From a virus, in the IMG/VR virus record IMGVR_UViG_3300027687_001309, positions 1 to 33,837 of that record: a stretch of 33,837 nucleotides of DNA; one strand, 5' to 3'. The translations under genes and the position numbers were made by a program. The notes below the pieces were generated by a model. The model saw nothing but the letters and a program-made list of their open reading frames with translations, did no database searches and was not told where the DNA came from. This document shows positions 7,163 to 33,837 of this stretch, one piece after another; positions within the stretch are counted from its first letter, which is position 1, and every line of letters starts with the position of its first letter.

Positions 7163-7176
7163 TTAGGCACTATAAT
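7148..7176 (+). promoter_or_regulatory. Sigma70-type promoter upstream of the clamp-like gene
   Basis: A perfect TTGACA (7148-7153) and a perfect TATAAT (7171-7176) are 17 bp apart. The -35 box lies inside the last codons of the SDR gene. The start codon at 7203 follows a GGAG site at 7192-7195. This should give strong early expression of the clamp-like and DpdA genes. Confidence 0.92.
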
Positions 7177-7202
7177 ATAACAATACACAATGGAGATTAG
7201 GC

Positions 7203-10192: not shown

Positions 10193-10262
10193 CTGTATAA
10201 TGATATTACGTGAAGGATATTACGATTATATGCTCAGACGAATAAGAGAGGAAAATAATAAA

Positions 10263-10655: not shown

Positions 10656-10666
10656 GGATTATTAAA

Positions 10667-12391: not shown

Positions 12392-12580
12392 TTGAGTAAG
12401 ATTACACAACGTATGGCAGAATTATGTCAACCAATTGATCAACAAATTATGATGTGTAACGGTCGAGAAGATGTTCTAATGATGGCATGTGCTATGCTTA
12501 CAAAAGTTAAAACAATCCTTGATTCACAAATTGGTGCAGATGCAAGAAAACAGATTATAGGAGATGCAAATAATGATTAA
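12392..12580 (+). CDS. Small hypothetical protein, conserved-looking
   Basis: This 62-residue protein starts at TTG behind a clear AAGGAG. It is helical throughout (PIDQQIMMCNGREDVLMMACAML fragments, then KVKTILDSQIG). It resembles from memory a short cyanophage ORFan of the same length. It has no membrane segment or catalytic motif. It overlaps the phosphoribosyltransferase gene by 8 bases. Confidence 0.55.
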   Translation: MSKITQRMAELCQPIDQQIMMCNGREDVLMMACAMLTKVKTILDSQIGADARKQIIGDANND

Positions 12581-19621: not shown

Positions 19622-20713
19622 ATGTCAGAAGTTGTTATGACACGTACTGTTAGCCCAAATAAGGCTAAAAAAAGCATTATACGAGCTTTTAAGAAAAAAC
19701 GTCCACTATTTTTATGGGGACCTCCAGGAATTGGTAAGTCTGATATTATTGGACAAGTTACCACTTCATTACCTAACAGTTATCTTATTGACATTCGTTT
19801 GTCACTTTGGGATCCTACTGACATTAAAGGTATGCCGTATTATAGTGCAAACGATAATACAATGAAATGGGCACCTCCAGCAGAACTTCCTACTGCTGAG
19901 TTTGCAGCACAATATGATAACATTGTATTGTTTTTAGACGAAATGAACTCTGCAGCGCCTGCAGTACAAGCGGCGGCTTACCAGTTAATTCTTAACCGTC
20001 GTGTAGGACAATATAAACTACCCGACAACGTCCTTATTGTTGCAGCTGGTAACAGAGAAGCAGATAAAGGTGTTACTTACAGAATGCCAGCACCGTTAGC
20101 AAATCGTTTTGTTCACTTGGAACTTGCTGTTGATTTTGATGATTGGTTTGCATGGGCTGCTGAAAACAAGATCCACAGAGATGTTGTTGGTTATTTGACT
20201 TTTAGCAAGAAAGACTTGTATGACTTTGATCCAAAAAGTCCAAGTCGTAGTTTTGCTACACCGAGATCCTGGTCATTTGTATCCGAATTACTTGAGGATG
20301 ATGATGACGAGAGTACCACTACAGATTTAGTTAGTGGCGCAGTAGGCGAAGGCCTTGCTGTGAAATTTAGTGCTCACCGTAAAGTTGCATCGAGCATGCC
20401 TAACCCAAGTGATATTTTGGCAGGTAAAGTAAAAGAGCTAAAGACAAAAGAAATCAGTGCCATGTATTCCTTAACTGTCTCACTCTGTTACGAGCTAAAA
20501 GACGCATCAGACAAGAACGATAAAAAGTTTGATGATAAAGTAAATAACTTCCTTAGGTTTTCTATGGATAATTTTGATACTGAATTGGTTGTAATGGGCA
20601 TTAAACTTGCTCTTACCCAATACGGCTTACCAATTGACCCGGACGAAATCGATTGCTTTGATGAATTTCATGAAAAGTATGGAAGATATATTACTGCTGC
20701 ACAAAAGGCTTAA
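19622..20713 (+). CDS. MoxR-type AAA+ ATPase
   Basis: This 363-residue ATPase has Walker A GPPGIGKS (residues 33-40), Walker B IVLFLDEMN (D106, E107) and a sensor-like AAGNREAD, followed by an acidic DDDDES linker. MoxR ATPases usually act with a VWA-domain partner to remodel or insert cofactors into target proteins, and the next gene encodes a VWA protein. The two therefore make a likely functional pair. A terminator lies between them, so they are expressed as separate units. It appears full length. Confidence 0.93.
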   Translation: MSEVVMTRTVSPNKAKKSIIRAFKKKRPLFLWGPPGIGKSDIIGQVTTSLPNSYLIDIRLSLWDPTDIKGMPYYSANDNTMKWAPPAELPTAEFAAQYDNIVLFLDEMNSAAPAVQAAAYQLILNRRVGQYKLPDNVLIVAAGNREADKGVTYRMPAPLANRFVHLELAVDFDDWFAWAAENKIHRDVVGYLTFSKKDLYDFDPKSPSRSFATPRSWSFVSELLEDDDDESTTTDLVSGAVGEGLAVKFSAHRKVASSMPNPSDILAGKVKELKTKEISAMYSLTVSLCYELKDASDKNDKKFDDKVNNFLRFSMDNFDTELVVMGIKLALTQYGLPIDPDEIDCFDEFHEKYGRYITAAQKA

Positions 20714-20727
20714 CGGTGAAATGAGTT

Positions 20728-20757
20728 TGGACGTTCTCAACAAAAACGTCCATTTTT
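20728..20757 (+). terminator. Intrinsic terminator between MoxR and VWA genes
   Basis: An 8-bp perfect stem, TGGACGTT (20728-20735) with AACGTCCA (20745-20752), closes a 9-base loop and is followed directly by a T5 tract (20753-20757). The next promoter's -35 box begins 3 bases later, so this separates two transcription units. Confidence 0.85.
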
Positions 20758-20759
20758 AC

Positions 20760-20788
20760 TTGACATCTACTGTAAATAAGTATATAAT
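20760..20788 (+). promoter_or_regulatory. Sigma70-type promoter upstream of the VWA gene
   Basis: A perfect TTGACA (20760-20765) and a perfect TATAAT (20783-20788) are 17 bp apart, placed immediately after an intrinsic terminator. An AAGGA site at 20806-20810 serves the ATG at 20820. Confidence 0.92.
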
Positions 20789-20819
20789 AGTATTATAACA
20801 GTTACAAGGAACATGGCAA

Positions 20820-22097
20820 ATGAGCGTTGAAGGCAAAAAAAATTGGCAACCAAATCCAGATATTACTCCTGAAGAACTTGCAGAAATGCGAGTCGAAGTA
20901 CTTGATCGTATCATTATTGCAAGAGTAGGCTTACTACTTCGTCATCCGTTTTTTGGTAATATGGCTACACGTTTACGCATTGTTGCTGCTGACGAATGGG
21001 TTCCTACTGCCGCAGTTGATGGCAGACATTTATACTTTAACACACAATTCTTTAATGCACTTACAAATAAAGAAATTGAATTTGTTATTGCACATGAAAT
21101 TTTACATTGTGTGTTTGATCACTTTACTCGTAGAGAAGATAGACTTCCTACATTACACAATATCTCCGCAGACTATATTGTAAACAACTTATTGGTTCGT
21201 GATCGTATTGGTACTAAGCCAACATTAATTGACTGTTATCAAGATTTTAAATACGAAAATTGGAGTTCTGAAGCAGTATACGATGACTTATTTGAAAACT
21301 ATGATGAAGAACAACTTAAAGCATTAGGTGAATTACTTGATGAACACATTGATTGGGAAGCATCAGGAGAAGACGGTGATTCGCCAGAAGGCAACGGAGC
21401 ACCAGGTAAAGGAAAACGACCTTCATATTCTAAAGAAGAATTAAAGAAGATACGTGATGAAATTAAAGAAGGCATGATGGCATCAGCTCAAGCAGCTGGC
21501 GCTGGCAATACGCCAGCTGAGATTCAACGTATGATTAAAGAACTTACTGAGCCTAAAATGAACTGGCGTGAAATATTACGTCAACAAATACAATCAACAA
21601 TACGTAACGATTATACCTTTACTCGTCCAAGCCGTAAAGGACAGATGTCAGGTGCAGTTTTACCTGGTATGAGTTTTATGGAAACAATTGATATTTGTAT
21701 TGGACTTGACATGTCAGGATCAATTGGTAATGAACAAGCACAAGACTTTTTAGGTGAAGTTAAAGGCATCATGGACGAGTACAAAGACTACAATATTAAG
21801 TTATGGTGCTTTGATACTAAAGTATATAACGAACAAGACTTTAGTGCAGATTGTGGTGACGACTTGCTAGATTATCAAATTATGGGCGGCGGTGGAACTG
21901 AATTTGATTGTAATTGGGAATATATGAAGCTTAACGATATACAACCTAAAAAGTTTATTATGTTTACAGATGGCTATCCTTGGGGTAGTTGGGGTGACGA
22001 AGATTACTGTGATACAGTATTTGTTATCCACAGTAATAATGATCAAACCCTAGAAGCACCGTTTGGATTAACTACACACTATGAACTTGCCGCATAA
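20820..22097 (+). CDS. Metallopeptidase-like/VWA-domain protein (DUF2201 type)
   Basis: This 425-residue protein has two parts. The N-terminal domain carries HEILHCVFDH with H92, E93 and H96, the zinc-peptidase HExxH motif. The C-terminal VWA domain has a complete MIDAS: D297-x-S299-x-S301 (DMSGS), T360 in GGGGTEF and D384 in FTDGYP. Between them lies a low-complexity linker (EASGEDGDSPEGNGAPGKGK) and a helix. This is the partner type of MoxR ATPases. Whether it cleaves anything is unknown. A nearby out-of-frame ATG at 20813 gives only five codons, so 20820 is the start. Confidence 0.92.
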   Translation: MSVEGKKNWQPNPDITPEELAEMRVEVLDRIIIARVGLLLRHPFFGNMATRLRIVAADEWVPTAAVDGRHLYFNTQFFNALTNKEIEFVIAHEILHCVFDHFTRREDRLPTLHNISADYIVNNLLVRDRIGTKPTLIDCYQDFKYENWSSEAVYDDLFENYDEEQLKALGELLDEHIDWEASGEDGDSPEGNGAPGKGKRPSYSKEELKKIRDEIKEGMMASAQAAGAGNTPAEIQRMIKELTEPKMNWREILRQQIQSTIRNDYTFTRPSRKGQMSGAVLPGMSFMETIDICIGLDMSGSIGNEQAQDFLGEVKGIMDEYKDYNIKLWCFDTKVYNEQDFSADCGDDLLDYQIMGGGGTEFDCNWEYMKLNDIQPKKFIMFTDGYPWGSWGDEDYCDTVFVIHSNNDQTLEAPFGLTTHYELAA

Positions 22098-22371
22098 AAT
22101 TAAAGAGCCTAACCCATTAAACTTTTTTAAGTTAAGAAAACTTGATAGGTTACCACCTCATTTTGAGTTTATATCTGTTCCGTTAACTTACAACATACAA
22201 GGTAGTATTGAAAAATGGATACTATATAACTTAAAAGGTCGATTTTATACTGATAAAAGTATAGATTTAGACTCTAGTGACACTATCCAATCTGTGTTAA
22301 AGATTGGATTTGAAGAAGGGAAGGAAATGAGTTATTTCACTTTAGCCTGCCCACATTTAAAATATAAGTAA
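22081..22371 (+). CDS. Hypothetical protein, conserved-looking
   Basis: This 96-residue protein starts inside the end of the VWA gene (17-base overlap). It has a Pro- and Lys-rich start, a FEFISVPLTYNIQGSIEKWI core and a C-terminal EMSYFTLACPHLKYK. I recall a similar C-terminus in cyanophage ORFans. No function can be given. Confidence 0.65.
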   Translation: MNLPHKIKEPNPLNFFKLRKLDRLPPHFEFISVPLTYNIQGSIEKWILYNLKGRFYTDKSIDLDSSDTIQSVLKIGFEEGKEMSYFTLACPHLKYK

Positions 22372-22395
22372 ATAATACTGAAGGAGATAATACTT

Positions 22396-22668
22396 ATGAG
22401 CGAAGATACAAACATAAACGAACTAGGTGAAGTTTCAGCAGCACCGATGGTAGGAGAAGCACCAACTCCTGAAGCACCTGGAAATAGTTTAGAATTAACT
22501 GTAAACGATTTACAGCTAATACGGCAGACTATTGAAGTAGCAACATCTAGAGGTGCTTTTAAAGCAAATGAGATGTTAACTGTAGGAACTGTATTTAATA
22601 AATTAGAAACATTTTTAACCGCTGTTGCTCAAGAACAGCAAAAGCAAGGAGAAACAAATGGCTCTTAA
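22396..22668 (+). CDS. Conserved marine T4-like phage protein, function unknown
   Basis: This 90-residue protein starts at an ATG with AAGGAG upstream. The first 30 residues are acidic and Pro/Ala-rich and probably disordered. The rest is two helices (LTVNDLQLIRQTIEVATSRG, NEMLTVGTVFNKLETFLTAV). I recall near-identical patterns in cyanophages. It overlaps the next gene by 11 bases. Confidence 0.7.
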   Translation: MSEDTNINELGEVSAAPMVGEAPTPEAPGNSLELTVNDLQLIRQTIEVATSRGAFKANEMLTVGTVFNKLETFLTAVAQEQQKQGETNGS

Positions 22669-23275
22669 ACACGTAGGACGAGTTGCTAAAAATAAAAATA
22701 AAGTTGTTGTAGCATATAGAACTATCCCCGGAGATTCAAGTTCTGCCGTTATAGTTAATATTAATGCGTTATCAGCAGACGAACACGATGCTCTTATGAA
22801 AGCAGTAGAATCAGAAGCAGGTCAAAGTGCATATGAATTTGCAGAACTAATGGCAAGGTCAAGCCTACCAGACGGTAGGAATATGTTAGGTGCGTTTCAT
22901 GCAACTGGAAAAATGCAGAAAGTAGACGTTTCTAGTATTGAAATGCAGCCAGATCATAAGACAGTAATAAACTTAACCGATCTTAATCAACTAATTGCTA
23001 CACAAAAAGGTGTTACAATTGATGAGTTAGCTGTTTCTCCAAATGTACCAACTAAGCCAGTAGCAACACCAGTAGCATCAATGGAAACTGCTAATATAGC
23101 AACGCCTGCTGCTAATGCAACTGACGTATTGTCAGATACAGACTTAGCCGCACAATTCCGTAGTCAAGCTGATTCATTGTATAAAGAAGCTAAATCACTA
23201 CGAGCACAAGCTGAGGAATTGGTTCCGACTGTTAAAAAGTCTAAAGCAAAAGCAACAGCTAGTGCCGAAGGATAA
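22658..23275 (+). CDS. Conserved marine T4-like phage protein, function unknown
   Basis: This 205-residue protein starts MALKHVGRVAKNKNKVVVAY at an ATG 6 bases after AAGGAG; the earlier ATG at 22625 lies inside the previous gene. The N-terminal domain (about 120 residues) has a SLPDGRNMLGAFHATGKM element. A Pro/Ala/Thr-rich linker (about 145-170) and a charged helical tail follow. I recall homologues in marine T4-like phages, role unknown. Confidence 0.7.
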   Translation: MALKHVGRVAKNKNKVVVAYRTIPGDSSSAVIVNINALSADEHDALMKAVESEAGQSAYEFAELMARSSLPDGRNMLGAFHATGKMQKVDVSSIEMQPDHKTVINLTDLNQLIATQKGVTIDELAVSPNVPTKPVATPVASMETANIATPAANATDVLSDTDLAAQFRSQADSLYKEAKSLRAQAEELVPTVKKSKAKATASAEG

Positions 23276-23582
23276 AAATAAACTTCCTAAGCATGTTATA
23301 GATATATGGCCTGACGTATTTAAAGACATTGACCTTAAAGTTGTGCCTTTAGAATATTTGCACTCTATTAGAGTTGTCTTTCAAGATGGAAAAATTTGGG
23401 ACATTGATATTCAAAATTCTAAAGACGATAATGGTAAAGAAATAAATGTACAATCAGAGTTAGAGAATATATTCAAACATTACGAGCAAGAAATTTCAAA
23501 CGTTGACTTTAGACTTGATACTGAAAGAGTTAAACGAGATATTAAGAAAAGAACTGCTCTTTTTATGAAGAAAAGAAGATAA
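23262..23582 (+). CDS. Conserved-looking phage protein, function unknown
   Basis: This 106-residue protein starts at a GTG inside the previous gene's end. It has DIWPDVFKDIDLKVVPLEYL, a strand pair (IRVVFQDGKIWDIDI) and a very basic C-terminus (DTERVKRDIKKRTALFMKKR). The basic tail suggests binding to nucleic acid or to an acidic partner. I recall a similar protein in cyanophages. Confidence 0.65.
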   Translation: MPKDKNKLPKHVIDIWPDVFKDIDLKVVPLEYLHSIRVVFQDGKIWDIDIQNSKDDNGKEINVQSELENIFKHYEQEISNVDFRLDTERVKRDIKKRTALFMKKRR

Positions 23583-23599: not shown

Positions 23600-23607
23600 C
23601 ATAAATA
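23600..23607 (+). promoter_or_regulatory. T4-late-type promoter box CATAAATA
   Basis: CATAAATA is in the 59-bp gap before a virion fibre-like gene, 35 bases from its ATG. The ATAAATA core is exact and a late class fits a structural gene. Confidence 0.6.
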
Positions 23608-23641: not shown

Positions 23642-24778
23642 ATGGCTTTAAGATTAAGACGTGGTAGTAATGCTGATAGATTACTTATAACCCCTTTAGA
23701 GGGAGAGTTAGTATACACCACAGATTCAAAATTAATTTACATAGGTGATGGTGCAACAGTTGGCGGAGTGCTAGTTGGAATTCAAGCACTAGGTTCAAAT
23801 TTAAATTTAGCTGGCAATGACATAGTAGGAACTGGAAATATTAATATTACTGGTACTATTACTGCTAGTGGAGATATTAACTTAGGTGACGGAGTAGGTG
23901 GTGACACTATTGGGATCCAAGGAAATATTACTTCTAACTTATTGCCAAATGTAGATAGTAATTATAATATTGGTAGTGGATCACTAAGATGGAATAATAT
24001 ATTTTCAACAGGTGTAGATGTTGGTGGACAAATTAATGCTGAAACAATTAATTCTAATATTGTTGCAGACGATAGTACTATTTCGTATAACAAAGCATCA
24101 AATACATTTAACGGTGTATTTAATGGTGATTTATCTGGAAGTGTATTCGGCGATGATAGTACACTATTAGTTGACGGAGTTAATAGTAAAATTGTTGGCG
24201 CAGTAACAACTCCTAATCTTAAAATTGAAGCAGACGGCACAGATATTAGCTTACTAACAATTTCTTCAAACGTTGTAGGTGCTACTGGTGCTAATGATAT
24301 TGTATTTGAGTCTTATGGTGGATCTACACTATCACGAACTAATGTAGTAGCTGGTAACGCAGTCGTAGATATAACTTCCAAAGCCTGGCACACAGGTGCC
24401 GCTGTGGGTGTAGCAACTATGAGATTTAGAACTGATCCGTTAGGCACATTTAGCAATCCTTCTACTGGCTTGCCTGGAAGTATTCTGTTTAGTACGTTTA
24501 ATGATGCTGGCACGCAACCACTTCTTAACTTTATGGAATTAGATTGCCAAGGAAGATTAAATGTTGGCGGTACATCTGTTAGTAATCCTTCTTTACCTGG
24601 TAAAGTTCGAGTCGTTGGCGGAGTAACTTCTACTAGTTTTATGCGGCCAGGAGTATATGCAGATGATACAGCACGTGACGCGGCAATTACAAGTCCAGCT
24701 GCTGGTATGATGGTGTTTAACACAACAGGTACCAAATTCCAAGGTTACACTGGCGCTGCTTGGGTAGATTTAAACTAA
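23642..24778 (+). CDS. Virion structural / tail fibre-like protein
   Basis: This 378-residue protein is rich in Gly, Asn, Ser, Thr and Val and has almost no Cys. The N-terminus LRLRRGSNADRLLITPLEGE, followed by YTTDSKLIYIGDGATVGG, is the start typical of marine T4-like fibre and structural proteins. The middle is made of beta-repeat-like segments (GNINITGTITASGDINLG). The C-terminus MMVFNTTGTKFQGYTGAAW is a common fibre tip ending. It probably forms a trimeric fibre or head/tail decoration. The gene ends tail-to-tail with the minus-strand cassette, the two stops overlapping by 9 bases. Confidence 0.82.
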   Translation: MALRLRRGSNADRLLITPLEGELVYTTDSKLIYIGDGATVGGVLVGIQALGSNLNLAGNDIVGTGNINITGTITASGDINLGDGVGGDTIGIQGNITSNLLPNVDSNYNIGSGSLRWNNIFSTGVDVGGQINAETINSNIVADDSTISYNKASNTFNGVFNGDLSGSVFGDDSTLLVDGVNSKIVGAVTTPNLKIEADGTDISLLTISSNVVGATGANDIVFESYGGSTLSRTNVVAGNAVVDITSKAWHTGAAVGVATMRFRTDPLGTFSNPSTGLPGSILFSTFNDAGTQPLLNFMELDCQGRLNVGGTSVSNPSLPGKVRVVGGVTSTSFMRPGVYADDTARDAAITSPAAGMMVFNTTGTKFQGYTGAAWVDLN

Positions 24779-25312
24779 TTTAATAAGTTTGATAACTTCA
24801 GATAACGGATCATTAAATCCTATCTGAAATAATATTCTAGATTGAGTATTTTCTAAACAGCCATGTTTAACTTTAGTATTAATTAGCACCGGTCCGGAAT
24901 AGTGATAACAATCTATAAAATTATTATCATTATCTACCCAAGTTATTGGATTTACAGTTTCTCCAATAGGAATAGTTAATACACAATCCCTAGCATCTAT
25001 ATGATACGGTAGTTTACCTGTTACTACTGCAATATGTGCTCTACTATAAAGATACATTAAATCAGAATGTAATGGTAATCTTACACAATATTTTGCAATT
25101 TTTTTAAACAAGTTGTGAGTTGAATAGTCAACATTACTATTTTTTAAATAAAAGTTTTTATATTGATTAAACACTGGCCTAAGTGTTCCATCAGGATTTT
25201 TACCTTGAACAGCGACTGCTTTGTCTTGATAAGTATTTTTTAGATGCTCTAAAAATTGATAATCTTTTTCATCTAAATTTAAGTCAACTTGATGGTATAA
25301 AATATTATTCAT
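24770..25312 (-). CDS. Fe(II)/2-oxoglutarate oxygenase-like protein, putative
   Basis: This 180-residue protein shows a plausible oxygenase active site: H104 and D106 in YHIDARD, H150 in KHGCLEN and R159 in SRILFQIGF, spaced as in small Asp- or Pro-hydroxylase-type folds. The substrate is unknown. The start at 25312 (MNNILYHQVD) overlaps the previous gene's stop; a 6-codon longer start is possible. It is the last gene of the minus-strand cassette, directly after the desaturase. Confidence 0.6.
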   Translation of the reverse strand: MNNILYHQVDLNLDEKDYQFLEHLKNTYQDKAVAVQGKNPDGTLRPVFNQYKNFYLKNSNVDYSTHNLFKKIAKYCVRLPLHSDLMYLYSRAHIAVVTGKLPYHIDARDCVLTIPIGETVNPITWVDNDNNFIDCYHYSGPVLINTKVKHGCLENTQSRILFQIGFNDPLSEVIKLIKLV

Positions 25313-25979
25313 GATTATGATGATCCCCATGCCTCCACGATAGCGGTGTTAGCCATGCTATCTCTGGTATATTTCTAGGCACGCCATTTTTGTGGCCTAA
25401 CCAATTAACTAAGCCGTTTACATGAATTGTATAAACAACAGAAGGTGCAATCATAAACAATACCAGTCGTAGGTCAATAGTTGCTAATATTAAAACACAT
25501 AAAAAATGTAGTTTAACTTGATTATGATGTAAAAACACTAATGATTTACTTTTAACTAAATCTCTTGCACTTGCTGGATTAATTTTTACTTTCTTCCACA
25601 TTAATGTATAAACCCTCCACCAGCCAATGTGTATTGGACTGTGCGGATCTTTATCAGTGTCTACATGTTTATGATGATGTCTATGTATTACTGAGAAGTT
25701 AAACGGACCACCTGCAGCAGTAAATAAATTAATTAAATACGAGTATACATTATTATACCAAACATCTTTATATTTTCCATGTGCAATATATAAATGTCCA
25801 ATATGTCCAAATAAAGCAAACCCAATATATCCACTTAATACGGACATAATTATATATGCTGTTTCCCAATTGTAATACCATAGCCCAGCAACAAGTGCAA
25901 TATGATGGAAAATAATTATACTTTTATTTCTATGAGCTTTAGTAAAGTTCTGTAAGTTTTTGTAAAAATTATGTATCAT
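25305..25979 (-). CDS. Fatty acid desaturase-like membrane protein
   Basis: This 224-residue integral membrane diiron enzyme has all three histidine boxes: H62-x4-H67 (HLYIAH), HRHHHKH at residues 99-105, and H217-x2-H220-H221 near the C-terminus (HGDHHNH). Hydrophobic segments lie around 21-60 and 155-185. The pattern is that of acyl-lipid or acyl-CoA delta-9 type desaturases, at the short end of the family. It overlaps the aldolase-like gene by 11 bases and the oxygenase by 8. It should act in the host inner membrane on acyl chains. Confidence 0.88.
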   Translation of the reverse strand: MIHNFYKNLQNFTKAHRNKSIIIFHHIALVAGLWYYNWETAYIIMSVLSGYIGFALFGHIGHLYIAHGKYKDVWYNNVYSYLINLFTAAGGPFNFSVIHRHHHKHVDTDKDPHSPIHIGWWRVYTLMWKKVKINPASARDLVKSKSLVFLHHNQVKLHFLCVLILATIDLRLVLFMIAPSVVYTIHVNGLVNWLGHKNGVPRNIPEIAWLTPLSWRHGDHHNHE

Positions 25980-26694
25980 AACCTGGATTTATCCTATCTA
26001 ATTTTCTCTTCATTGCAGACCATAATAAAGGTGGTGCTCTATCTGACTGATTATCTGTATTGTATTTAGTAGTGCGATCTGTAACATCTTTTTCAATCGG
26101 TATAAATAGATTATCTGTAGATTGGATTGCTAGTTGTATTTCACACGCTCGCTGAAGTATATATTGATTAAAAAATGCACTATCAATTGTTTTTGCCGTA
26201 ACAAGAGAACCGTGATTCTTCATCATGCAAAAGTTATTTTTTCCTATGCTAGATACTAATCTTTCTTTTTCATCTTCCCAGAAAAATATTCCTTCATAAT
26301 CATGATATGAAATATTTTTAGTAATATATACTCCGTACTGAGAACACGGCTGTAGTCCGTTAGTAAACGACGATACTGCAACAATAGGAGTTGTATGTGT
26401 GTGTACAATATAATTTATATCTGGACGAGCTACATGAACAGCACTATGAATATTGTATCCAACTTTATTGTATAGTCTTTCTTCTGAAGATCCATCGTTA
26501 AGGTTTATTTTAATTAAAGATGATGCTGTAATTTCTTCGTACAAGTAACCATACGGATTCATAAGAATATAGTCCGTTCCAGGAATTCTAGCACTTATAT
26601 GTGTAAAAATTGAGTCTGACCAATTAAGTATATCGAATATTCGATATATTGCAGCAAGATTACATCTTGTTTTCCATTCAAGTTCTAATTGCAT
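25969..26694 (-). CDS. Class II aldolase/adducin-family protein
   Basis: This 241-residue protein has the aldolase/adducin pattern: GYNIHSAVHVARPDINYIVH followed by THTT gives the metal-binding histidines H98 and H100, and KNHGSL gives H161. The IHSAVH element is that of the adducin-like branch, whose biochemical role is poorly known, rather than of fuculose-phosphate aldolase. The gene lies between two desaturase genes and overlaps both (11 and 17 bases), which suggests that it works on the same substrate pathway. Confidence 0.85.
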   Translation of the reverse strand: MQLELEWKTRCNLAAIYRIFDILNWSDSIFTHISARIPGTDYILMNPYGYLYEEITASSLIKINLNDGSSEERLYNKVGYNIHSAVHVARPDINYIVHTHTTPIVAVSSFTNGLQPCSQYGVYITKNISYHDYEGIFFWEDEKERLVSSIGKNNFCMMKNHGSLVTAKTIDSAFFNQYILQRACEIQLAIQSTDNLFIPIEKDVTDRTTKYNTDNQSDRAPPLLWSAMKRKLDRINPGYDT

Positions 26695-27448
26695 GTATAA
26701 AATATTTCATTAAATCAAACTCATACCATTTATTTCTTATATCAGTAGTATACGACGATTGATAACAATGATGTGTATTATGCATACCATTACCAATAGT
26801 TAGTGCATTTAAAATTATATTGTTAGTACTATGATCAGGTGTATTGTACGTTCGGTAACCGTGTCCATGTCCTACAATATTAACAATTCCTGTTTCTAAA
26901 AAGAATCCAAAACACGGAAATGCAAATAAAAGTAATAGAGGATATATACCAAACATACTTAATACTACTAACCATAAATAAAATAATTTAAAATAATGCT
27001 TATGAATAAACATTATCTCAGTATCTCTAATAATGTCTTTGCCGTATTTTGCTGACGGAACAAAATCCGAACTCCAGGTTCTTAAAAATATTTTTAAGTT
27101 ACCTGCTATTGCCGGAGGATGCGGATCATCTACGGTATCTGAGTCTTTGTGATGGACTCTATGTGTTATAACCCATAAAAATTGACTACCATGGCCTACT
27201 ATAAAAGATATAAATTTAAGAACTTTATCCCAAAAATTAGATGTTTTAAATGATCGATGAGAAAAATATCTATGTAATGCTACATCCCCTCCAATTTTAC
27301 CAATTGTATAGTACGACAACAGACCTAATAGCAATACTGTCCAGGAAAAATAATTTACACTCCAATATAAAATTACTATTATAGATAGTGCAAAATTAAT
27401 CTTCATCTTTGCAGAAGATGAAAAAAGTTTATCCGGGTCTAAAGTCAT
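26678..27448 (-). CDS. Acyl-CoA/acyl-lipid delta-9-type fatty acid desaturase
   Basis: This 256-residue membrane protein has the stearoyl-CoA desaturase-type boxes HRYFSH (H59, H64), HRVHH (H96, H99, H100) and HNTHH (H223, H226, H227). The spacing and the GDVALHRYFSHRSFK context are close to that family. Hydrophobic segments are at about 20-50, 75-92 and 152-188. It is distinct from the other desaturase in sequence, so the pair is not a recent duplication. It should introduce double bonds into host acyl chains. Confidence 0.92.
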   Translation of the reverse strand: MTLDPDKLFSSSAKMKINFALSIIVILYWSVNYFSWTVLLLGLLSYYTIGKIGGDVALHRYFSHRSFKTSNFWDKVLKFISFIVGHGSQFLWVITHRVHHKDSDTVDDPHPPAIAGNLKIFLRTWSSDFVPSAKYGKDIIRDTEIMFIHKHYFKLFYLWLVVLSMFGIYPLLLLFAFPCFGFFLETGIVNIVGHGHGYRTYNTPDHSTNNIILNALTIGNGMHNTHHCYQSSYTTDIRNKWYEFDLMKYFIHAIRT

Positions 27449-28494
27449 TAATATGCATACCTAAATTTTTCAATATATTCTTCAATTGTTATTACTTTGC
27501 TATCAAGCACAATACCTGGTTCTGCATAACCTAAATTTTGTAAGCCTTGAGTTCCTTTGTGTAAGATTTTGTCATAGTTACAAGTCTGTCTAACCATAAC
27601 TCGCTTACTACAATCTTCTGTCATTCTTCTATGCACTGTAATTGTTTGATCCATCATGATTAATTCGCCATCGGCCCATTTCTGTTCGTACATAAACTCA
27701 GGACGCATAAACCAATTCTTTAAATATTCCATGATTTCATTGCTATCGGCTTCGCTATATCCTTTAAAATGATGCAATGTAGCATAACTTAAACGAATAC
27801 CTTTTCGTCCAAGCGGGCTATAACAAACAACAGGTACTTCGCTATCATCAATTGGACACATGTTCATTCTTAGAATGTTATCCTGACTTGCGTTTAATCC
27901 GGGTGCCATTTTGTTAGGAACATACTTATGGACACCTACTAAGTTTTCAAGTTGATCTTTCCATTCACTCGACAAAGTTTCATAAGCATCAGCAGTTTGT
28001 AAAAATTCAGTACTTGTATTTTCTGTACCTTCGACAGACATAAGCACAATCATTGGTACAAAGTTTCCTGTACCTTGTCTATCACAATGCCAATCTAAAA
28101 CACCTTCGGCGAACATGCCTAGAAAATCACCCTCTTCATCTCTTTTTCCGGTAACTCGTATCATTCCGTCGTATTGCTCAAGGCCAGATCGAATTTTTCT
28201 AAGTTCTTTAAGCGTTTGTAAATCTTTTTTAGTTATATTTTTAGACTTTCTACGTTCTGAAGTCATTTTGTAAGCAGATTGGTCTACACCGCCGAACGGA
28301 TTGCCAAATATATTAGCAATATAATTTAAACGTTCTGGAGTTACACTACAGTTGTCTTTATTAATATAAACTAATAGTTGATCAGCAGATATTAATCCTA
28401 CTTCAATTAATTCTTCATCTGAACAATTTTGCAAATTGATATCATAAATTTCAACTCCTAGCGAGCCAAAGCCATTTAGTTTTCTTATTTTCAT
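27448..28494 (-). CDS. TauD/TfdA-like Fe(II)/2-oxoglutarate dioxygenase
   Basis: This 348-residue protein has an HxD motif in LDWHCDRQG (H136, D138), the distal histidine H288 in MDQTITVHRRM and a following arginine (R298 or R302) for 2-oxoglutarate. This is the full active site of the clavaminate synthase/TauD family. The substrate is unknown. It starts at ATG behind GAGG, directly after a 26-residue peptide, and overlaps the desaturase by one base. Its second-half loops are longer than in TauD (about 280). Confidence 0.9.
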   Translation of the reverse strand: MKIRKLNGFGSLGVEIYDINLQNCSDEELIEVGLISADQLLVYINKDNCSVTPERLNYIANIFGNPFGGVDQSAYKMTSERRKSKNITKKDLQTLKELRKIRSGLEQYDGMIRVTGKRDEEGDFLGMFAEGVLDWHCDRQGTGNFVPMIVLMSVEGTENTSTEFLQTADAYETLSSEWKDQLENLVGVHKYVPNKMAPGLNASQDNILRMNMCPIDDSEVPVVCYSPLGRKGIRLSYATLHHFKGYSEADSNEIMEYLKNWFMRPEFMYEQKWADGELIMMDQTITVHRRMTEDCSKRVMVRQTCNYDKILHKGTQGLQNLGYAEPGIVLDSKVITIEEYIEKFRYAY

Positions 28495-28501
28495 AATTAC
28501 C

Positions 28502-28582
28502 TCATTTCAACTGATTTATGATTGCAATTTCCCAAGCATCTCGAGGTTTACCATCTCTATGACCTTTATAAAATTTGTACAT
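28502..28582 (-). CDS. 26-residue hypothetical peptide
   Basis: This is a tiny ORF, ATG to TGA, starting 4 bases after the fibre-like stop and ending 5 bases before the dioxygenase start. The peptide is MYKFYKGHRDGKPRDAWEIA then IINQLK. It fills a gap between two coupled genes, which supports translation, but a chance ORF or a leader peptide is possible. No ribosome binding site is clear. Confidence 0.3.
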   Translation of the reverse strand: MYKFYKGHRDGKPRDAWEIAIINQLK

Positions 28583-28586
28583 AGAA

Positions 28587-29165
28587 TTAATCACCTAGTA
28601 ATATCTCTCTCCATTTAGTTCCATCGTAAAACACTGTGTATGGAGTTTTAGAATTTTTCCCGCAAGGATCCCATTCATTTGGATTACCACTAGCAACAGT
28701 TATCATTCCTGCTTCGCCTTCTGCCGGCGGTGTTGATTGCACTCTTAACTTTGCAATACCGTTAATATCTAACCTTGCATTAGGCGACGGGTGTTTTGTT
28801 CCTATTCCAAAATTATTATGATTAGCAATTACAAAAACACCATTTTCTGGAAACAAATGTCCTTCTGTTTTTTCACGATTGCCTAGTAATAAAAAGTTTG
28901 AGCCACCAACAATTATAGAGTTAGCACCTGATCCATTTATATCTTCTTTTTCAAAAACAACTCTTCCAAAAACAGTATGCGGCAAGGATAAGTCTGCCTC
29001 GGGATCCCGGCGAATTAATTTTAACGTAGCTCTATTAAACCAACTGCTAGTAGTTGTCCGTACTTGTAGTGTTGCAGGGGTGTCAATATCATTGTTGCTA
29101 TTAGAAACTGTTAAAATGTTAGTATCTGAAGTAACTATATCTTTTATATCATTTAATTTTTCTAT
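28587..29165 (-). CDS. Fibre-like virion protein with no standard start codon in the sequence
   Basis: The reading frame is a fibre-like protein: ANHNNFGIGTKHPSPNARLD, LDINGIAKLRVQSTPPAEGE, and a C-terminal TPYTVFYDGTKWREI. The standard start found is TTG at 28985, but coding-like sequence (LTVSNSNNDIDTPATLQVRT) continues upstream to near 29165 without ATG, GTG or TTG. An AAGGA ribosome binding site lies 8 bases before an ATA at 29165-29163. Alternatively a lost A in the homopolymer after ATG 29191 has broken the frame. I give the ATA start; the 5' end is uncertain. The late box at 29206-29213 fits this transcript. Confidence 0.6.
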   Translation of the reverse strand: MEKLNDIKDIVTSDTNILTVSNSNNDIDTPATLQVRTTTSSWFNRATLKLIRRDPEADLSLPHTVFGRVVFEKEDINGSGANSIIVGGSNFLLLGNREKTEGHLFPENGVFVIANHNNFGIGTKHPSPNARLDINGIAKLRVQSTPPAEGEAGMITVASGNPNEWDPCGKNSKTPYTVFYDGTKWREILLGD

Positions 29166-29205
29166 TTTATTGTTCCTTTTTATTGTTTCATTAGACTATT
29201 TTTAG

Positions 29206-29213
29206 TATTTATC
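29206..29213 (-). promoter_or_regulatory. T4-late-type promoter box GATAAATA
   Basis: On the minus strand GATAAATA lies in the short gap before the fibre-like gene, at the 3' end of the SGNH gene. It is 41 bases from the ATA start proposed for that gene. The core ATAAATA is exact. Confidence 0.5.
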
Positions 29214-30030
29214 GGTGACATAATTTATTATATAAATAATTGGCCATTATAGAATGATGATGTTCTTTTGGATGACTATACCCGTGAACATCATCATCCC
29301 AATTTTTTACAATCTGACTAAAAGAGTAATTACAATCAATTATAGACGATAACTTAAAAACTTCGTTAGACAAATTTTTATATTTGTTCTCTAATAACGG
29401 ATCAACTACCCAAGGCCTATGCATAAATTGTAATAGTATCCTATTGTTTAATTGTTTAGAAAGAAAATTTAGATGTTTCAACGACAAAAATGTATTAAAA
29501 AAATACTGATTTACATTTGAAATATATAATAAAAATTCATTATAAAATTTTGTTGAGGGCCAATCATGTTTCCAATCAAAAATAGTTTTATGTGTATTGC
29601 CGTTTTTGTCTATCCACATCCATCTTTCATACGGACTGATTCCTACAATAACAAGATCGGTATCTTTTATTAGAGATGCCGATAGATCTAATTCTATATT
29701 GTAAACTGATAGCTGATTATTGCCTGCTGGAACTGATCGATTATCACAATCAACATTAAATAATTGTGCTAATTTATTAGCCCATGATTTTGTCTTAGAG
29801 TAATTTTCTATTTCTTCAAAAGATACATCAGAGTTTATATATTTTTCTATAAACAATTTCCTAGTATGCTGTTTTTTAATTTTATCAATATCAGAAATAT
29901 CAAATTTACGTTTATAATCGTTATTTAAAAATAATTCATTTCCTATTTCTGAACCGGCGGTAATACTACATCCGTAAAATACAATCCTATCAAAATTTAT
30001 TATAGTATTGTCACGAACAATTGATGCCAT
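29209..30030 (-). CDS. SGNH/GDSL-type hydrolase-like protein
   Basis: This 273-residue protein has the block I motif GCSITAG with S22 as nucleophile. It then has NRSVPAGNNQ (block with Gly/Asn oxyanion residues) and a C-terminal YSHPKEHHHSIMANYLY block, in which H253-P254 is the likely catalytic His. The usual DxxH aspartate is not at the expected place (a Gly is there; D247 is close), so activity is uncertain. Such enzymes de-esterify lipids or polysaccharides. Next to fibre-like genes it could act on a host surface polymer. It starts 2 bases after the radical SAM stop. Confidence 0.75.
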   Translation of the reverse strand: MASIVRDNTIINFDRIVFYGCSITAGSEIGNELFLNNDYKRKFDISDIDKIKKQHTRKLFIEKYINSDVSFEEIENYSKTKSWANKLAQLFNVDCDNRSVPAGNNQLSVYNIELDLSASLIKDTDLVIVGISPYERWMWIDKNGNTHKTIFDWKHDWPSTKFYNEFLLYISNVNQYFFNTFLSLKHLNFLSKQLNNRILLQFMHRPWVVDPLLENKYKNLSNEVFKLSSIIDCNYSFSQIVKNWDDDVHGYSHPKEHHHSIMANYLYNKLCHR

Positions 30031-30032
30031 TA

Positions 30033-30980
30033 TTAATAGCCACCTTCGTTCATTTTAACATGCTCGCTCATTGGTGCTACTTTAAAATCTGCTGTTAATC
30101 TGCCACGGCGGTTATTTCCAGGTAACGGAACACCATCTGGATTTGAGAATGTATTCCAATCAGCTATTTTAAACCATATTCCGCTTTTATGAAAAGGTTT
30201 ACCTTTAGAATTTTCAGATAAAGGAAATACAAAACTGCTTTCTTCAATATCTTTGTTTTTATAGATTGGATTATTTCTCCAGCTTTCTATATAATCTACA
30301 CTTAACTTAGTTTGTTCTGATACTAAATTAATTAATCCTTGCATAGTGTAGTTACTATCCATAGTTATAATTTGTCCACCGAGGTTTTCATCAAACATAC
30401 TTCGTCCTAAATTGCCAACGTTTTTTATCCTAGCTAGTACATTAACTACACCAGTTTGATTATATAAATGTAACAATCTAGAAACTGCTTCATCATTAAC
30501 ACCTTTAACAATAATAGTTCCGGTATCAATAATCATTCTGTTATTAACTAGATTTTGAAGAGCTGCAATTTTTTTAGTTGCACATCTAAGTTCGTCAATT
30601 TCTTCGTACCAGTCGTCGTTGTCAACTCCGTTTAGGCTGAGATATATGTGAGATAATCTATTAGATTTTAGTTCTTTGACATACCTATCACTTGCTAACC
30701 GAAGTCCGTTAGTTAACAAAGTTGCACGATGACCTGTTTCTCTTATTCTGCGGATAAGTTGAGGCAAATCTTTTCTCATAGTAGGCTCTGCACCTACTAC
30801 ACGTATCATAGTTTTATTGGGGAATTTTTTAATAGTTTCAATTAGTATATCAGCATCTAGATCAGGTATGTTTCGATTAGGAATATAACAATTTTTACAA
30901 CTCATATTACATCGATGTGTAACATCCACCATTACATCACTAAAATGATTATGTTCTGGGTCTAATTCATAATATTGCAT
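30033..30980 (-). CDS. Radical SAM enzyme, function unknown
   Basis: This 315-residue protein has the cluster motif C24-x3-C28-x2-C31 (THRCNMSCKNCYIPNRN), followed by VVGAEPTMRKDL, a variant of GGEP, and TLLTNGLRL. This is the SPASM/MoaA-like core. The rest (with a long insert and a C-terminal tail) shows no second Fe-S cysteine cluster. The substrate could be a peptide, lipid or nucleotide. A good AGGAG site lies 7 bases before the ATG. It would need an Fe-S cluster and SAM, both with possible phage supply (IscU, MetK). Confidence 0.9.
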   Translation of the reverse strand: MQYYELDPEHNHFSDVMVDVTHRCNMSCKNCYIPNRNIPDLDADILIETIKKFPNKTMIRVVGAEPTMRKDLPQLIRRIRETGHRATLLTNGLRLASDRYVKELKSNRLSHIYLSLNGVDNDDWYEEIDELRCATKKIAALQNLVNNRMIIDTGTIIVKGVNDEAVSRLLHLYNQTGVVNVLARIKNVGNLGRSMFDENLGGQIITMDSNYTMQGLINLVSEQTKLSVDYIESWRNNPIYKNKDIEESSFVFPLSENSKGKPFHKSGIWFKIADWNTFSNPDGVPLPGNNRRGRLTADFKVAPMSEHVKMNEGGY

Positions 30981-31518
30981 TTTTGATACTCCTGAGGTTT
31001 GCCCTATTTACACAGTATTTACCTAGTAACGCTACTCGATCTGCAGCATCTGAGTTTTTCACAGAATGTTTATAACATCCATTCACAAAATATAGTTCTC
31101 CAGGTTCCATAACAACACTGTCTCCTGTTTCTGACATAAAAGTATGACGTCCTTGGATTACACATAAACATCGTAACGTAAATGGTTCATCGAGATGAAA
31201 TGGAAGAGTTGAATTTGCTTCTAATTTGCCAAATCTTAAATGATGTATGCCGGACAATATATTATATTCATTTGGCAGCGTTAATTCATTTGTGTATAAT
31301 TGATTATAATATGTTGTTAATTCATCAAAAGCTTCAACTGTAGTTCCTTTAATGCCATCTTTTTCTCGCTGGTATTTTGCATAATCACTTGATACAGGTG
31401 TGTTACTATATACAGAATATGCATAATCTAACCATTCTTTTTTTACTTTTCCTAATAGCAAAAACGCCGGTAGTTGTCGTCCTTTAACGTATGCCCTTAG
31501 TGTCTTTATATCGTTCAT
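30967..31518 (-). CDS. Asp/Asn beta-hydroxylase-like Fe(II)/2OG oxygenase
   Basis: This 183-residue protein carries an active-site set: H108 and D110 in LPFHLDEPFTLR, H151 in YKHSVKN and R161 in DRVALLGKY. It also has the GELYFVNGCYKHS element seen in the aspartyl/asparaginyl hydroxylase family. The substrate may be a protein side chain or a small molecule. The start overlaps the end of the GNAT-like gene by 35 bases. The ORF is intact. Confidence 0.75.
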   Translation of the reverse strand: MNDIKTLRAYVKGRQLPAFLLLGKVKKEWLDYAYSVYSNTPVSSDYAKYQREKDGIKGTTVEAFDELTTYYNQLYTNELTLPNEYNILSGIHHLRFGKLEANSTLPFHLDEPFTLRCLCVIQGRHTFMSETGDSVVMEPGELYFVNGCYKHSVKNSDAADRVALLGKYCVNRANLRSIKNAIL

Positions 31519-32110
31519 GGTATTCCTCTATGCTAATTTTTTTAAGATCAAAATTTTTAAATTCTGTTAAGTAATATATAGCAATACTCTGCCAACATTC
31601 CGGCTTTGGTCTAGGACTACCATCTGATAAACATTTGCAAGTGTTGTAAAGATCAGGCAGCAATTCAAATTTATATTGCGGTTGCCTGTTCGTCAGCATT
31701 TCTAAAGCTCTTCGTTTTTTTGGGTTTTGCATACTGATAAAAACAGAACTAAACCCTCTAGCTTTAGCTACTTCCATCTGATATGGTATTACATAAAACG
31801 AATTGTATCTTAAATTGTTGTTAAAAGGGCTAAACATACCGCCATTTTTGTTCCAATCATAGTAGTATGTTCTATCTAATATACGTGCAGTATAGTTTGG
31901 ATATCGACCACCGTTATACAATCCACTAATAGCAAGTAGTTTATCATTTTCAACCAATACAGTAAAGCACTCATAATCATTAAGTTTAGACTCTAAGTCA
32001 ACATAATTTTTTGCATTATGATGTCCAGAATTAACTATTTCTGGGATTGAATCAATTACACGTTGTTTCCATTTATCTGATGTTAATATATTATAAATTT
32101 GGATAGTCAT
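31484..32110 (-). CDS. GNAT-like acetyltransferase, tentative
   Basis: This 208-residue protein has the general shape of a GNAT N-acyltransferase: a first strand-helix part, a LLAISGLYNGGRYPNYTARI stretch, YNSFYVIPYQMEVAKARGFS (possible acetyl-CoA binding region) and SVFISMQNPKKRRALEML. The classical R/Q-x-x-G-x-A motif is not clear, so the call is tentative. The start is the ATG at 32110, overlapping the previous gene by 20 bases. The substrate is unknown. Confidence 0.45.
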   Translation of the reverse strand: MTIQIYNILTSDKWKQRVIDSIPEIVNSGHHNAKNYVDLESKLNDYECFTVLVENDKLLAISGLYNGGRYPNYTARILDRTYYYDWNKNGGMFSPFNNNLRYNSFYVIPYQMEVAKARGFSSVFISMQNPKKRRALEMLTNRQPQYKFELLPDLYNTCKCLSDGSPRPKPECWQSIAIYYLTEFKNFDLKKISIEEYHERYKDTKGIR

Positions 32111-32936
32111 AAGCAATCCTGTGCATTAGTCTATCTTCCATTTGATCAAACTGCCAACGCTTATGAATACTTAACCATTGCTCTGATAACAACAGATCGT
32201 GGTTTTGCCATTCATGATGGTAAATGTATTTCTCTTGTACCACGTGTTGTCGCAATTCTTCAATTAGTGCATCACATTCTTCTTGGGGAGTATTTTCCAT
32301 TTCTAAAATTTGATGGTAGGGAAAATAAAGTCCTGTTTGGCCACCGTCATTTGTATACACTAAAGGAATTCCCCAATCTCTATTGATATGCTCTTTGAAT
32401 TGTGATGACTCAGAGTATGTACCCTTTCGGTATCCGCAGAATACTTTTTTATCAGCAATCTTATCTTTCAATGTCTGAGGTAAATCATTATACGTAACAA
32501 TGTTATTGATGAAACTGGTTTTGCTGTTAACCATACCTGTTTCACCCCACATCCATATTATTGGTTTACGTTCTGGAGAACTACATCTGTTTGCATGCCA
32601 GTCAAGAGTACTGGTGTGCCCAAATAGTCCAATAATACCATCTTTATTTTTTTTACCTGTTACTCTAATAATACCCGGTAATATTGTAGTATCGTCTACC
32701 CGTTTATCTTTAATTGTACTAATAGGGTTGCCTATAATTTTAACAATTCGAAGTTCTTCTTCTGGTGTTAAATTTTGGTCTTTCATTATTACTACTGTGC
32801 TACGCAATAATGTTTTATGAATATATTTTATTTGATCATTATTAAATGTAGCAATTTGACCACACACTTCTACTGTCCAGCCGTTGTCTAGATAATGCAT
32901 ATCTAATCCAAAATCATTTTTAATTTTTGTTATCAT
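32091..32936 (-). CDS. TauD/TfdA-like protein with an altered metal site (HxN)
   Basis: This 281-residue protein is of the TauD family: RVTGKKNKDGIIGLFGHTST, then LDWHANRC, and distal SEQWLSIHKRWQ with H258 and R273 near the end. In the HxD motif the aspartate is asparagine: H114-x-N116 (codon AAC). Such a change removes one Fe(II) ligand. The protein could be inactive, a binding protein, or a variant chemistry. It aligns by motif with the intact oxygenase at 27448-28494, so the two may be paralogues. Confidence 0.8.
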   Translation of the reverse strand: MITKIKNDFGLDMHYLDNGWTVEVCGQIATFNNDQIKYIHKTLLRSTVVIMKDQNLTPEEELRIVKIIGNPISTIKDKRVDDTTILPGIIRVTGKKNKDGIIGLFGHTSTLDWHANRCSSPERKPIIWMWGETGMVNSKTSFINNIVTYNDLPQTLKDKIADKKVFCGYRKGTYSESSQFKEHINRDWGIPLVYTNDGGQTGLYFPYHQILEMENTPQEECDALIEELRQHVVQEKYIYHHEWQNHDLLLSEQWLSIHKRWQFDQMEDRLMHRIAYDYPNL

Positions 32937-32940
32937 TTTC

Positions 32941-33564
32941 TTATCCGATCATTTTTGAACAAACATCATTAACTGCTTCATTTGTTAATTCAATGTTAGC
33001 TACTAAAAAGTAACATGTATCAGTAGGACTAACATTACATAATGTATGCATTTTAGCAGTATCTATAAAATAAAAGGTACCGTCGTCAAATTTTAAAGGA
33101 GTGTCTTCTAATAAAAATACACAACTCCTTTTTGGAAATCTAATAGGCAAAAATAATCTAAATGCAGATATTCCCGGATACTTGCTATCTCTGTGCCAAG
33201 GAAAAAATCCGCCTGGTCCCATTTTAATAATGTGCGTTCTACTTACTGAAGTGCCAAAATGATCTAACCATTTAGCAAAATACGGATACACTTCAGTTTT
33301 AGCTTTAAAGTTGTTTTCAGTTAATCTAATTCCTGTATTATCATAATGTTCATAAAGAGAATCTAAATCAGGAATACCAGACATGCCGCCATCGTGGCTA
33401 ACGACGCTAAGTGCAAAACGATCAATTTTTTTTTTCGGATTATACCTTACCCAATCATATTTTTCTTCTAATTCTTTTACGATATTTTCAACAGAAAATT
33501 TCAAATTTATCGGATAACAACTACCGAAGCGAGTTAGTATTGAATATAAATCATGTCCTATCAT
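32941..33564 (-). CDS. Asp/Asn beta-hydroxylase-like Fe(II)/2OG oxygenase
   Basis: This 207-residue protein has FFPWHRDSKYPGISAFRLFL with H124 and D126, and TFYFIDTAKMHTLCN with H173, the three metal ligands. The distal arginine for 2-oxoglutarate is not obvious. It is a second member of the aspartyl-hydroxylase-like group in this cassette, only loosely similar to the first. It is the first gene of the minus-strand cassette. Its ATG has no strong ribosome binding site. Confidence 0.75.
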   Translation of the reverse strand: MIGHDLYSILTRFGSCYPINLKFSVENIVKELEEKYDWVRYNPKKKIDRFALSVVSHDGGMSGIPDLDSLYEHYDNTGIRLTENNFKAKTEVYPYFAKWLDHFGTSVSRTHIIKMGPGGFFPWHRDSKYPGISAFRLFLPIRFPKRSCVFLLEDTPLKFDDGTFYFIDTAKMHTLCNVSPTDTCYFLVANIELTNEAVNDVCSKMIG

Positions 33565-33657: not shown

Positions 33658-33665
33658 TATTTATA
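33658..33665 (-). promoter_or_regulatory. T4-late-type promoter box TATAAATA (minus strand)
   Basis: An exact TATAAATA on the minus strand, 94 bases before the first gene of the minus-strand cassette. It probably starts the cassette's main late transcript. The leader in between has only very short ORFs. Confidence 0.65.
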
Positions 33666-33698: not shown

Positions 33699-33706
33699 TA
33701 TAAATA
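33699..33706 (+). promoter_or_regulatory. T4-late-type promoter box TATAAATA (plus strand)
   Basis: An exact TATAAATA, divergent from the one at 33658-33665 and 7 bases before the ATG at 33714. If used, the transcript would begin at or near the start codon, so translation could be leaderless. The 149-bp gap between the divergent genes holds these two boxes and nothing else recognised. Confidence 0.6.
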
Positions 33707-33713: not shown

Positions 33714-33837
33714 ATGATCAATATTGTAGTTACAAGCAAACCAGTAGACGGATTACTATATTACAGTTATGAATATTGTGATATGCTAAACAATGCTGGT
33801 TACCCTGCACGAGTTGTTATTATCTGTCACAGAAAAT
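33714..33837 (+). CDS. Possible glycosyltransferase N-terminus, cut by window end
   Basis: A reading frame from ATG 33714 runs off the window (41 codons visible). It begins MINIVVTSKPVDGLLYYSYE and continues with a helix and a VVIICH strand, a pattern like the first beta-alpha-beta of GT-B glycosyltransferases in marine phages. There is no ribosome binding site. The function is an inference from a short piece. Confidence 0.45.
   Translation, partial: MINIVVTSKPVDGLLYYSYEYCDMLNNAGYPARVVIICHRK

Follow-up and report, generated by a model that had tools for sequence, protein, structure and literature searches.

The 33.8-kb virus contig analysed here (IMG/VR record IMGVR_UViG_3300027687_001309, positions 1 to 33,837; this whole stretch is referred to as the window) carries on its minus strand, at positions 24770-33564, a cassette of genes coding mainly for oxidative enzymes. 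We found that this cassette forms one arm, that on the fibre side, of a hypervariable island whose position beside an Mtd-type fibre gene is fixed. The island occurs in a large, uncultured clade of marine phages with kinship to jumbo phages that infect alphaproteobacteria, and it draws its genes from a limited set of families: 2-oxoglutarate (2OG) oxygenases, desaturases, GNAT proteins, radical S-adenosylmethionine (SAM) enzymes, a pyridoxal phosphate (PLP) enzyme and a methyltransferase. The reading that we favour, with a probability of about 0.4, is that the island encodes a late-expressed modular pathway for an oxidised, N-acylated surface decoration, which would be placed on the host envelope more probably than on the fibre.

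Recurrence of the cassette and the larger island

In order to obtain relatives independently of the cassette, IMG/VR was scanned with c55, a flank protein unrelated to the cassette genes; at least 576 contigs were recovered, and the best 80 were kept. Alignments of the desaturase and of AAH12 (one of the 2OG oxygenase families) were also used for scanning, that of the GNAT protein being too diverse for this use, and single-protein scans with TauD or the aldolase yielded no relatives. Beyond the fibre gene, the contigs of the relatives showed one pool of families, with gene order and strand shuffled. Sequence of 3 kb or more 3' of the fibre gene was available for 31 nonredundant loci; a 2OG gene was present there in 28 of them and a gene for an oxidative metalloenzyme in 30, and oxidative-enzyme genes reached a density of 5.66 per 10 kb, against 0.19 per 10 kb upstream of the conserved block on the other side of the fibre gene. 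An unbiased sample was formed by 27 nonredundant islands longer than 6 kb that came from the c55 scan and were not chosen for cassette genes. A 2OG gene was found in 26 of these, and G10, the family of the GNAT-fold protein, in 12. The 2OGa-G10 pair occurred together more often than expected (p = 4.7e-5) and survived correction for 36 pairs; the pairs DES-TauD (p = 0.0037) and DES-G10 (p = 0.007) were nominally significant only. When 35 islands were counted, 2OG genes were present in 34 and a desaturase gene in 13. Family labels were taken from iterated profiles, which could drift; catalytic motifs were kept in 139 of 145 AAH, 79 of 79 AAH12, 163 of 177 DES and 262 of 274 radical SAM proteins, and the cassette families were under purifying selection (median dN/dS, the ratio of nonsynonymous to synonymous rates, 0.10-0.17). 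For the desaturases (PF00487) the motif consisted of the His boxes HX3-4H, HX2HH and HX2HH in this order, and it was present in the window protein encoded at 26678 as well. Since the families recurred at the matching place, formed non-random pairs, included a subset of about ten genes that moves together (see below) and were under purifying selection, these results supported the cassette genes being a functional grouping and not chance neighbours. The cassette is also not peculiar to the window phage. The original prediction, made from the sequence alone, had named gene content varying independently between relatives, without conserved pairs, as the sign of a loose hot spot; conserved pairs were found, although content nonetheless varied strongly.

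In relatives with longer contigs, the cassette was one arm of a bigger island, whose other arm was the better conserved. This second arm contained genes for GTm, an APH-like kinase, a small SPASM-like partner (M85), radical SAM enzymes and an SGNH-like protein, and also for a DegT aminotransferase, a QueC-like PP-loop enzyme, nitroreductases (NTR), a carbamoyltransferase (CARB) and a methyltransferase. The arm GTm-M85-rSAM-DegT-NTR-CARB-MT90 was found in the loci L167, L176, L190 and L209 and in Mosig, a cultured Kyanoviridae phage of Pelagibacter that carries both arms in the same divergent layout and in which the island ends at tail-fibre genes. On the far side of the island a conserved block was found in L168 and L170, as judged from gene order and size only. 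The subset that moves together consists of AAH12, DES, AMT, a flavin mononucleotide (FMN) reductase, PRX, M76, TauD, MT74, GNAT and AAH, and was found in Mosig and in L161 and L209, two loci of the clade of the window whose ten-gene oxidation arm has almost the same gene set as that of Mosig. In the AAH12 tree, at least six label changes were forced for the jumbo group. This tree, together with the oxidation arm common to Mosig, L161 and L209, indicated that the set moves between phage lineages. AAH12 is mainly viral, with at least 498 viral relatives against 13 in 84,980 genomes, these 13 being mostly from Bdellovibrionota. In one of these bacteria (L185) a similar set lies in the chromosome, where it adjoins aroA and has an acyl carrier protein gene nearby, and related clusters are present in G012 and G013.

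The Bdellovibrionota chromosomes L273, L274, L275 and L185 were also seen to contain clusters of radical SAM, 2OG and PP-loop genes together with paired small membrane proteins (about 134-168 plus about 291-329 amino acids); a comparison of these pairs with SdpA/SdpB was dropped, there being no NCBIfam match. Matches of the desaturase and of fucA to the Acinetobacter 'phage' MD-2021a were discounted, since the contig with the desaturase looks like host chromosome.

Genes and promoter-like boxes in the window

Coordinates, strand and overlapping gene order of the cassette were as originally predicted, and the five probable Fe(II)/2OG oxygenases proposed there, which fall into three or more types, were backed by Pfam families and motifs. 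The AAH12 enzyme (32941-33564), of Asp_Arg_Hydrox type, scored 24.1 bits with Pfam PF05118 (cut-off 22.6) and is 35% identical to Mosig_00081, and an Asp_Arg_Hydrox/cupin-type enzyme (30967-31518; HLD...H...R) scored 22.4 bits, slightly below the same cut-off. Two proteins are of TauD type. The one encoded at 27448-28494 (Pfam 7e-19; PHROG 24590, 2e-45) has the canonical HxD as HCD and, with HCD...H...R, the complete facial triad and the 2OG-binding Arg, whereas the one at 32091-32936 (Pfam 2e-20) has HAN, at residue 114, instead of HxD. Such His-X-Asn proteins would be either altered oxygenases or enzymes of a different reaction. The replacement of the metal-binding His-X-Asp by His-X-Asn was observed in 26 of 35 phage TauD relatives, and it is conserved across lineages and in the Bacteriovoracaceae chromosome L185. 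The fifth oxygenase-like protein, of family 2OGa (24770-25330), had no library match; it shows an HID...H...R motif, has homologues in L147, L071, L132 and L073, and is a member of a phage 2OG family that keeps HxD/E...H in 74 of its 79 proteins.

The two desaturases, the radical SAM enzyme and the class II aldolase-like protein were likewise upheld by family searches, His boxes and motifs. DES A (26678-27448) is a diiron fatty-acyl-desaturase-like membrane enzyme (Pfam FA_desaturase 1.2e-17; HRYFSH, HRVHH and HNTHH) whose best PDB match was acyl-CoA desaturase 1 (5e-11). DES B (25305-25979) is a diiron desaturase-like protein with His boxes and had no Pfam match; it matched DesA (4e-5), and is 25% identical to DES A (2e-15) and 31% identical to the Mosig desaturase. 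As a separate observation, the viral contigs L041, L042, L062, L068 and L011 have between five and eight desaturase-like genes in tandem, a number that far exceeds the needs of simple lipid editing. The class II aldolase/adducin-domain protein (25969-26694; Pfam 2e-40) exceeded the cut-off of the NCBIfam subfamily PRK07044 and is rare in relatives. The radical SAM enzyme (30033-30980; Pfam 9e-18; CNMSCKNC) matched the PDB entry GDGT-MAS (7e-17) with its N-terminal half. The protein predicted to be GNAT-like (31484-32116), of the cassette-associated family G10, had no sequence match in Pfam or other libraries and showed a GNAT fold by an AlphaFold2 (AF2) model (pLDDT 90.8) and Foldseek matches to PDB GNATs (best E 1e-6). 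As to the predicted SGNH hydrolase (29209-30030), it has an SGNH-like motif (FYGCSITAG) and one strong viral homologue, in the L172 island (2e-34), but no match in Pfam or other libraries, and this assignment stays unproven. An additional fibre-like open frame within the run (28587-29195, minus strand, start codon unclear) was absent from the original list; it has phmmer relatives, for example one adjoining the Mtd fibre gene in L031, and may be a relic or an exchanged fibre tip.

The left part of the window encodes a family-B DNA polymerase, whose nearest relatives are those of two jumbo phages, Sinorhizobium Phosso (50%) and Agrobacterium Atu_ph07; megablast of positions 1-12000 against phage records gave no match. 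On the plus strand this part ends with a conserved block (19622-23582; Pfam and PHROGs) with genes for an ATPase (19622), VWA/DUF2201 (20820), c52 (22081), c55 (22625) and c53 (23262), an order that is maintained in relatives. The Mtd_N-domain fibre-like gene (23642-24778, plus strand; Pfam Mtd_N 1.4e-8) forms the left border of the island; it adjoins the conserved block in nearly all relatives whose contigs extend that far, and the cassette starts at its end. To the right of the cassette, on the plus strand, lies the start of GTm (33714-33837), the probable GT-B-like glycosyltransferase gene that is the first of the second arm and is cut by the record end. Its 41 amino acids are near-identical to the GTm starts of L194 and L140 and homologous to Mosig_00083. 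GTm gave a weak fold match to glycosyltransferases (GT-B), and since the structure model was poor (pLDDT 60.7) this search was taken as suggestive. In the replication half of the window, genes for a GTP cyclohydrolase, a phosphoribosyltransferase and a formyltransferase were noticed (14016-14699, 12564-13133 and 17846-18391), possibly for nucleotide or deazaguanine metabolism.

A late-promoter-like box, ATAAATA, is located upstream of the fibre gene (23601-23607, plus strand). All 63 distinct regions upstream of fibre genes contained it, and none of 59 VWA/c5x regions did; it is usually followed by C, lies 30-41 bp ahead of the fibre start in the examples listed, and also precedes structural-block genes in L168 and L170. 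The late promoter of T4 resembles this box. The element is clade-wide and could serve to predict which genes make up the late regulon in these uncultured phages. The 149-bp divergent gap between the two arms contains one TATAAATA on each strand, before the cassette operon (33658-33665, minus strand) and before the divergent gene (33699-33706, plus strand), each oriented toward its own gene (P about 5e-4). Only position and orientation count here, since TATAAATA is not enriched in the whole window (5 found against 7.3 expected). Boxes were found at 7 of 37 co-directional cassette leads against 0 of 37 on the opposite strand, and the stricter ATAAATAC was commoner at cassette leads (9/77) than at other genes (3/315). 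From these motifs late expression appears likely for the cassette operon of the window, and is suggested for the cassette family as a whole.

A proposed surface-decoration pathway and its alternatives

Building on the enzyme classes, co-occurrence, location, selection and transfer described above, we propose that the two arms jointly produce one surface decoration. The idea of a single product had already been part of the original prediction and is plausible, lipid, peptide and glycan substrates all being candidates. In the second arm, GTm, the APH-like kinase, DegT, the QueC-like PP-loop enzyme and the carbamoyltransferase would, along with nitroreductases and radical SAM enzymes, supply and transfer a modified amino-sugar-like unit, the handling of this sugar-like unit falling to DegT, the kinase, the carbamoyltransferase and GTm. 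The cassette arm, by means of its desaturases and 2OG enzymes, would make a desaturated or hydroxylated acyl or amino-acyl group, and the GNAT-fold protein may attach it. Varied combinations of genes would then give varied decorations. The logic would be similar to that of acyl-sugar pathways of the viosamine/anthrose type. The decoration would be made late, alongside the fibre, and would most likely alter the envelope receptor of the host against coinfection or re-adsorption, the fibre of the phage itself being the second candidate target. In both phage lineages, the clade of the window and Mosig, the island lies next to fibre genes.

Several observations weigh against this proposal. The target and chemistry of the cassette, and with them substrate and product, are deduced. 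No flippase, polymerase or classical O-antigen set was found by a Pfam census of 55 unlabelled proteins of the island-bearing loci, and a search for gtr-type serotype conversion found no bactoprenol glucosyltransferase or flippase among the same 55 proteins or the cassette proteins. GTm had no Pfam match, and its model was poor. Desaturases indicate lipids as readily as acyl-sugars, and late expression suits fibre decoration at least as well as avoidance of coinfection. The late-promoter-like box was present in 21 of 77 cassette leads (about a quarter), and was overall no commoner than at other genes (78/315). Finally, since the window ends before the second arm, the presence of this arm in the window phage is deduced from 41 residues.

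Modification of the phage's own adhesin was kept as a serious rival because of the fibre adjacency and the late-type promoters, although we regard it as doubtful. The 2OG hydroxylases, GNAT and radical SAM enzymes would in this case act on the Mtd-type or tail fibre, or on a decoration attached to it, and change its binding or shield it from proteases or competitors. That fibre genes directly adjoin the island in two phage lineages, that the cassette itself contains a fibre-like frame, and that late-promoter-like boxes precede the fibre gene and occur on either strand in the divergent gap are all in keeping with this, as is the resemblance of the AAH-type enzymes to amino-acid and protein hydroxylases (PDB: Beta-hydroxylase, proline 4-hydroxylase). 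However, integral-membrane desaturases are unable to work directly on a folded fibre, and protein hydroxylation needs neither a sugar-type second arm nor a carbamoyltransferase.

It is unlikely that the product of the island is a free metabolite with bioactive or signalling function, formed by a natural-product-like pathway, and not a surface decoration. Such a product would agree with the homologous Bdellovibrionota clusters, which contain a B12-radical SAM enzyme of the KedN5 natural-product family, and with the acyl carrier protein gene near the L185 set. PP-loop, DegT and carbamoyltransferase families are also common in antibiotic pathways. A secreted product, however, would be of little gain to a lytic phage and would leave the fibre adjacency unexplained, and the phage islands examined showed no recognisable carrier protein or exporter.

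Remodelling of membrane lipids, in which desaturases and LpxO-like hydroxylases would alter host fatty acyl chains to aid replication at a late stage or release, a role already suggested for the lipid desaturases of cyanophages, was judged quite unlikely. The match of DES A to an acyl-CoA desaturase, the desaturase tandems of up to eight genes at other viral loci and the likeness of the N-terminal half of the radical SAM enzyme to tetraether lipid synthase speak for it, but a desaturase was present in only 13 of the 35 islands, against 34 with 2OG genes, and TauD, DegT, carbamoyltransferase and PP-loop enzymes fit simple lipid editing poorly. An ornithine-lipid pathway was considered and rejected: a PF05118 hydroxylase, as in ornithine-lipid/LpxO-type hydroxylation, is encoded at 32941, and no Pfam match to the OlsB-type N-acyltransferase (PF13444) was obtained for the protein at 31484, despite its GNAT fold. 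The presence of PP-loop, radical SAM and 2OG enzymes had also suggested DNA hypermodification, an idea that was set aside as membrane desaturases and the adjacent fibre gene are at odds with it. That the genes next to the fibre gene are unrelated cargo in a loose hot spot is already disfavoured and very improbable; this reading would explain the strong variation in content and order between relatives, the lower GC of the island (31.7% against 35.9% in the remaining window) and the gene exchange between lineages, but not the narrow, strongly oxidative pool (34/35 islands), the non-random pairs, the co-moving ten-gene set or the purifying selection.

Comparison with known systems

The cassette had been put forward as a candidate for an undescribed system; that it is a stand-alone and wholly undescribed one was not supported, since in relatives it is one arm of a larger island, Mosig carries a clearly homologous set and a related kind of island has been published (PMC7029224). 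Among published systems, the nearest in kind is the host recognition cluster (HRC) of pelagimyophages, a hypervariable, non-syntenic island between conserved modules, with tail fibres, glycosyltransferases and radical SAM cassettes (Zaragoza-Solas 2020, PMC7029224). It was defined in T4-like pelagimyophages, between VrlC and gp14, and was proposed to alter the host O-chain against coinfection; an aspartyl/asparaginyl hydroxylase is core to these phages (PMC7029224). The island of the window is similarly hypervariable, with a conserved left flank, shuffled content and a conserved right block in L168 and L170 (its own right flank lies beyond the record end), and has both the Mtd_N fibre gene and the fibre-like frame. 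As a candidate glycosyltransferase gene it has the start of GTm only, GTm having no Pfam match and a weak GT-B fold match. It differs from the HRC in being located in a jumbo-related clade beside VWA-Mtd_N, and in its oxidation arm of 2OG enzymes, desaturases and GNAT, which is not described as a unit in PMC7029224.

Pelagibacter phage Mosig EXVC030M (MT647606, Mosig_00072-00094) resembles the window in AAH12 (35% identical), desaturase (30%) and TauD (28%), in GNAT, AAH and radical SAM genes and a GTm homologue, and in adjoining a tail fibre. It differs in adding an aminotransferase, an FMN reductase, a peroxiredoxin and a methyltransferase and in having no aldolase and no second desaturase; its genome paper leaves this gene set unmentioned. 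In Sinorhizobium phage Phosso, at the matching place, several radical SAM genes and an oxidoreductase gene come after a c55 homologue and precede a virion structural gene, but no gene of the 2OG or desaturase families was found at that island. Cyanophage lipid desaturases are phage-borne diiron desaturases, whereas those of the window are embedded in an oxygenase/GNAT island beside the fibre. T4-like cyanophages carry several 2OG-Fe(II) oxygenase genes per marine phage genome, for which a role in 2OG/N-stress or repair was proposed (Sullivan 2010, PMC3037559). A TauD homologue is present in P-HM1 and P-HM2, but in P-HM2 it stands alone, near gp59/gp32.

Many 2OG oxygenases and radical SAM enzymes of marine phages are of unexplained purpose. 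A set that is shuffled yet non-random, placed beside an adhesin in a large clade and in a cultured pelagiphage, would turn scattered auxiliary genes into one testable pathway. If the host envelope is altered, this would be a chemical front of phage-phage competition on some very common ocean bacteria; if the fibre is altered, it would be a virion decoration of a new kind. Sharing with Bdellovibrionota hints that the same surface chemistry may be used by intracellular phages and predatory-type bacteria. We tentatively raise the possibility of a new type of modular, horizontally traded biosynthetic pathway building a heavily oxidised surface conjugate, common to at least two unrelated marine phage lineages and Bdellovibrionota chromosomes. 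Reshuffling of the 2OG, desaturase, GNAT and radical SAM genes, in concert with the fibre gene, would diversify the chemistry of this conjugate and give combinatorial receptor masking or adhesin decoration. Pelagimyophage islands with fibres, glycosyltransferases and radical SAM genes, and the many 2OG genes of cyanophages, were already known; new are the HRC-like island in an unrelated, abundant, uncultured clade and its oxidation arm, which has non-random pairs and is common to Mosig and Bdellovibrionota.

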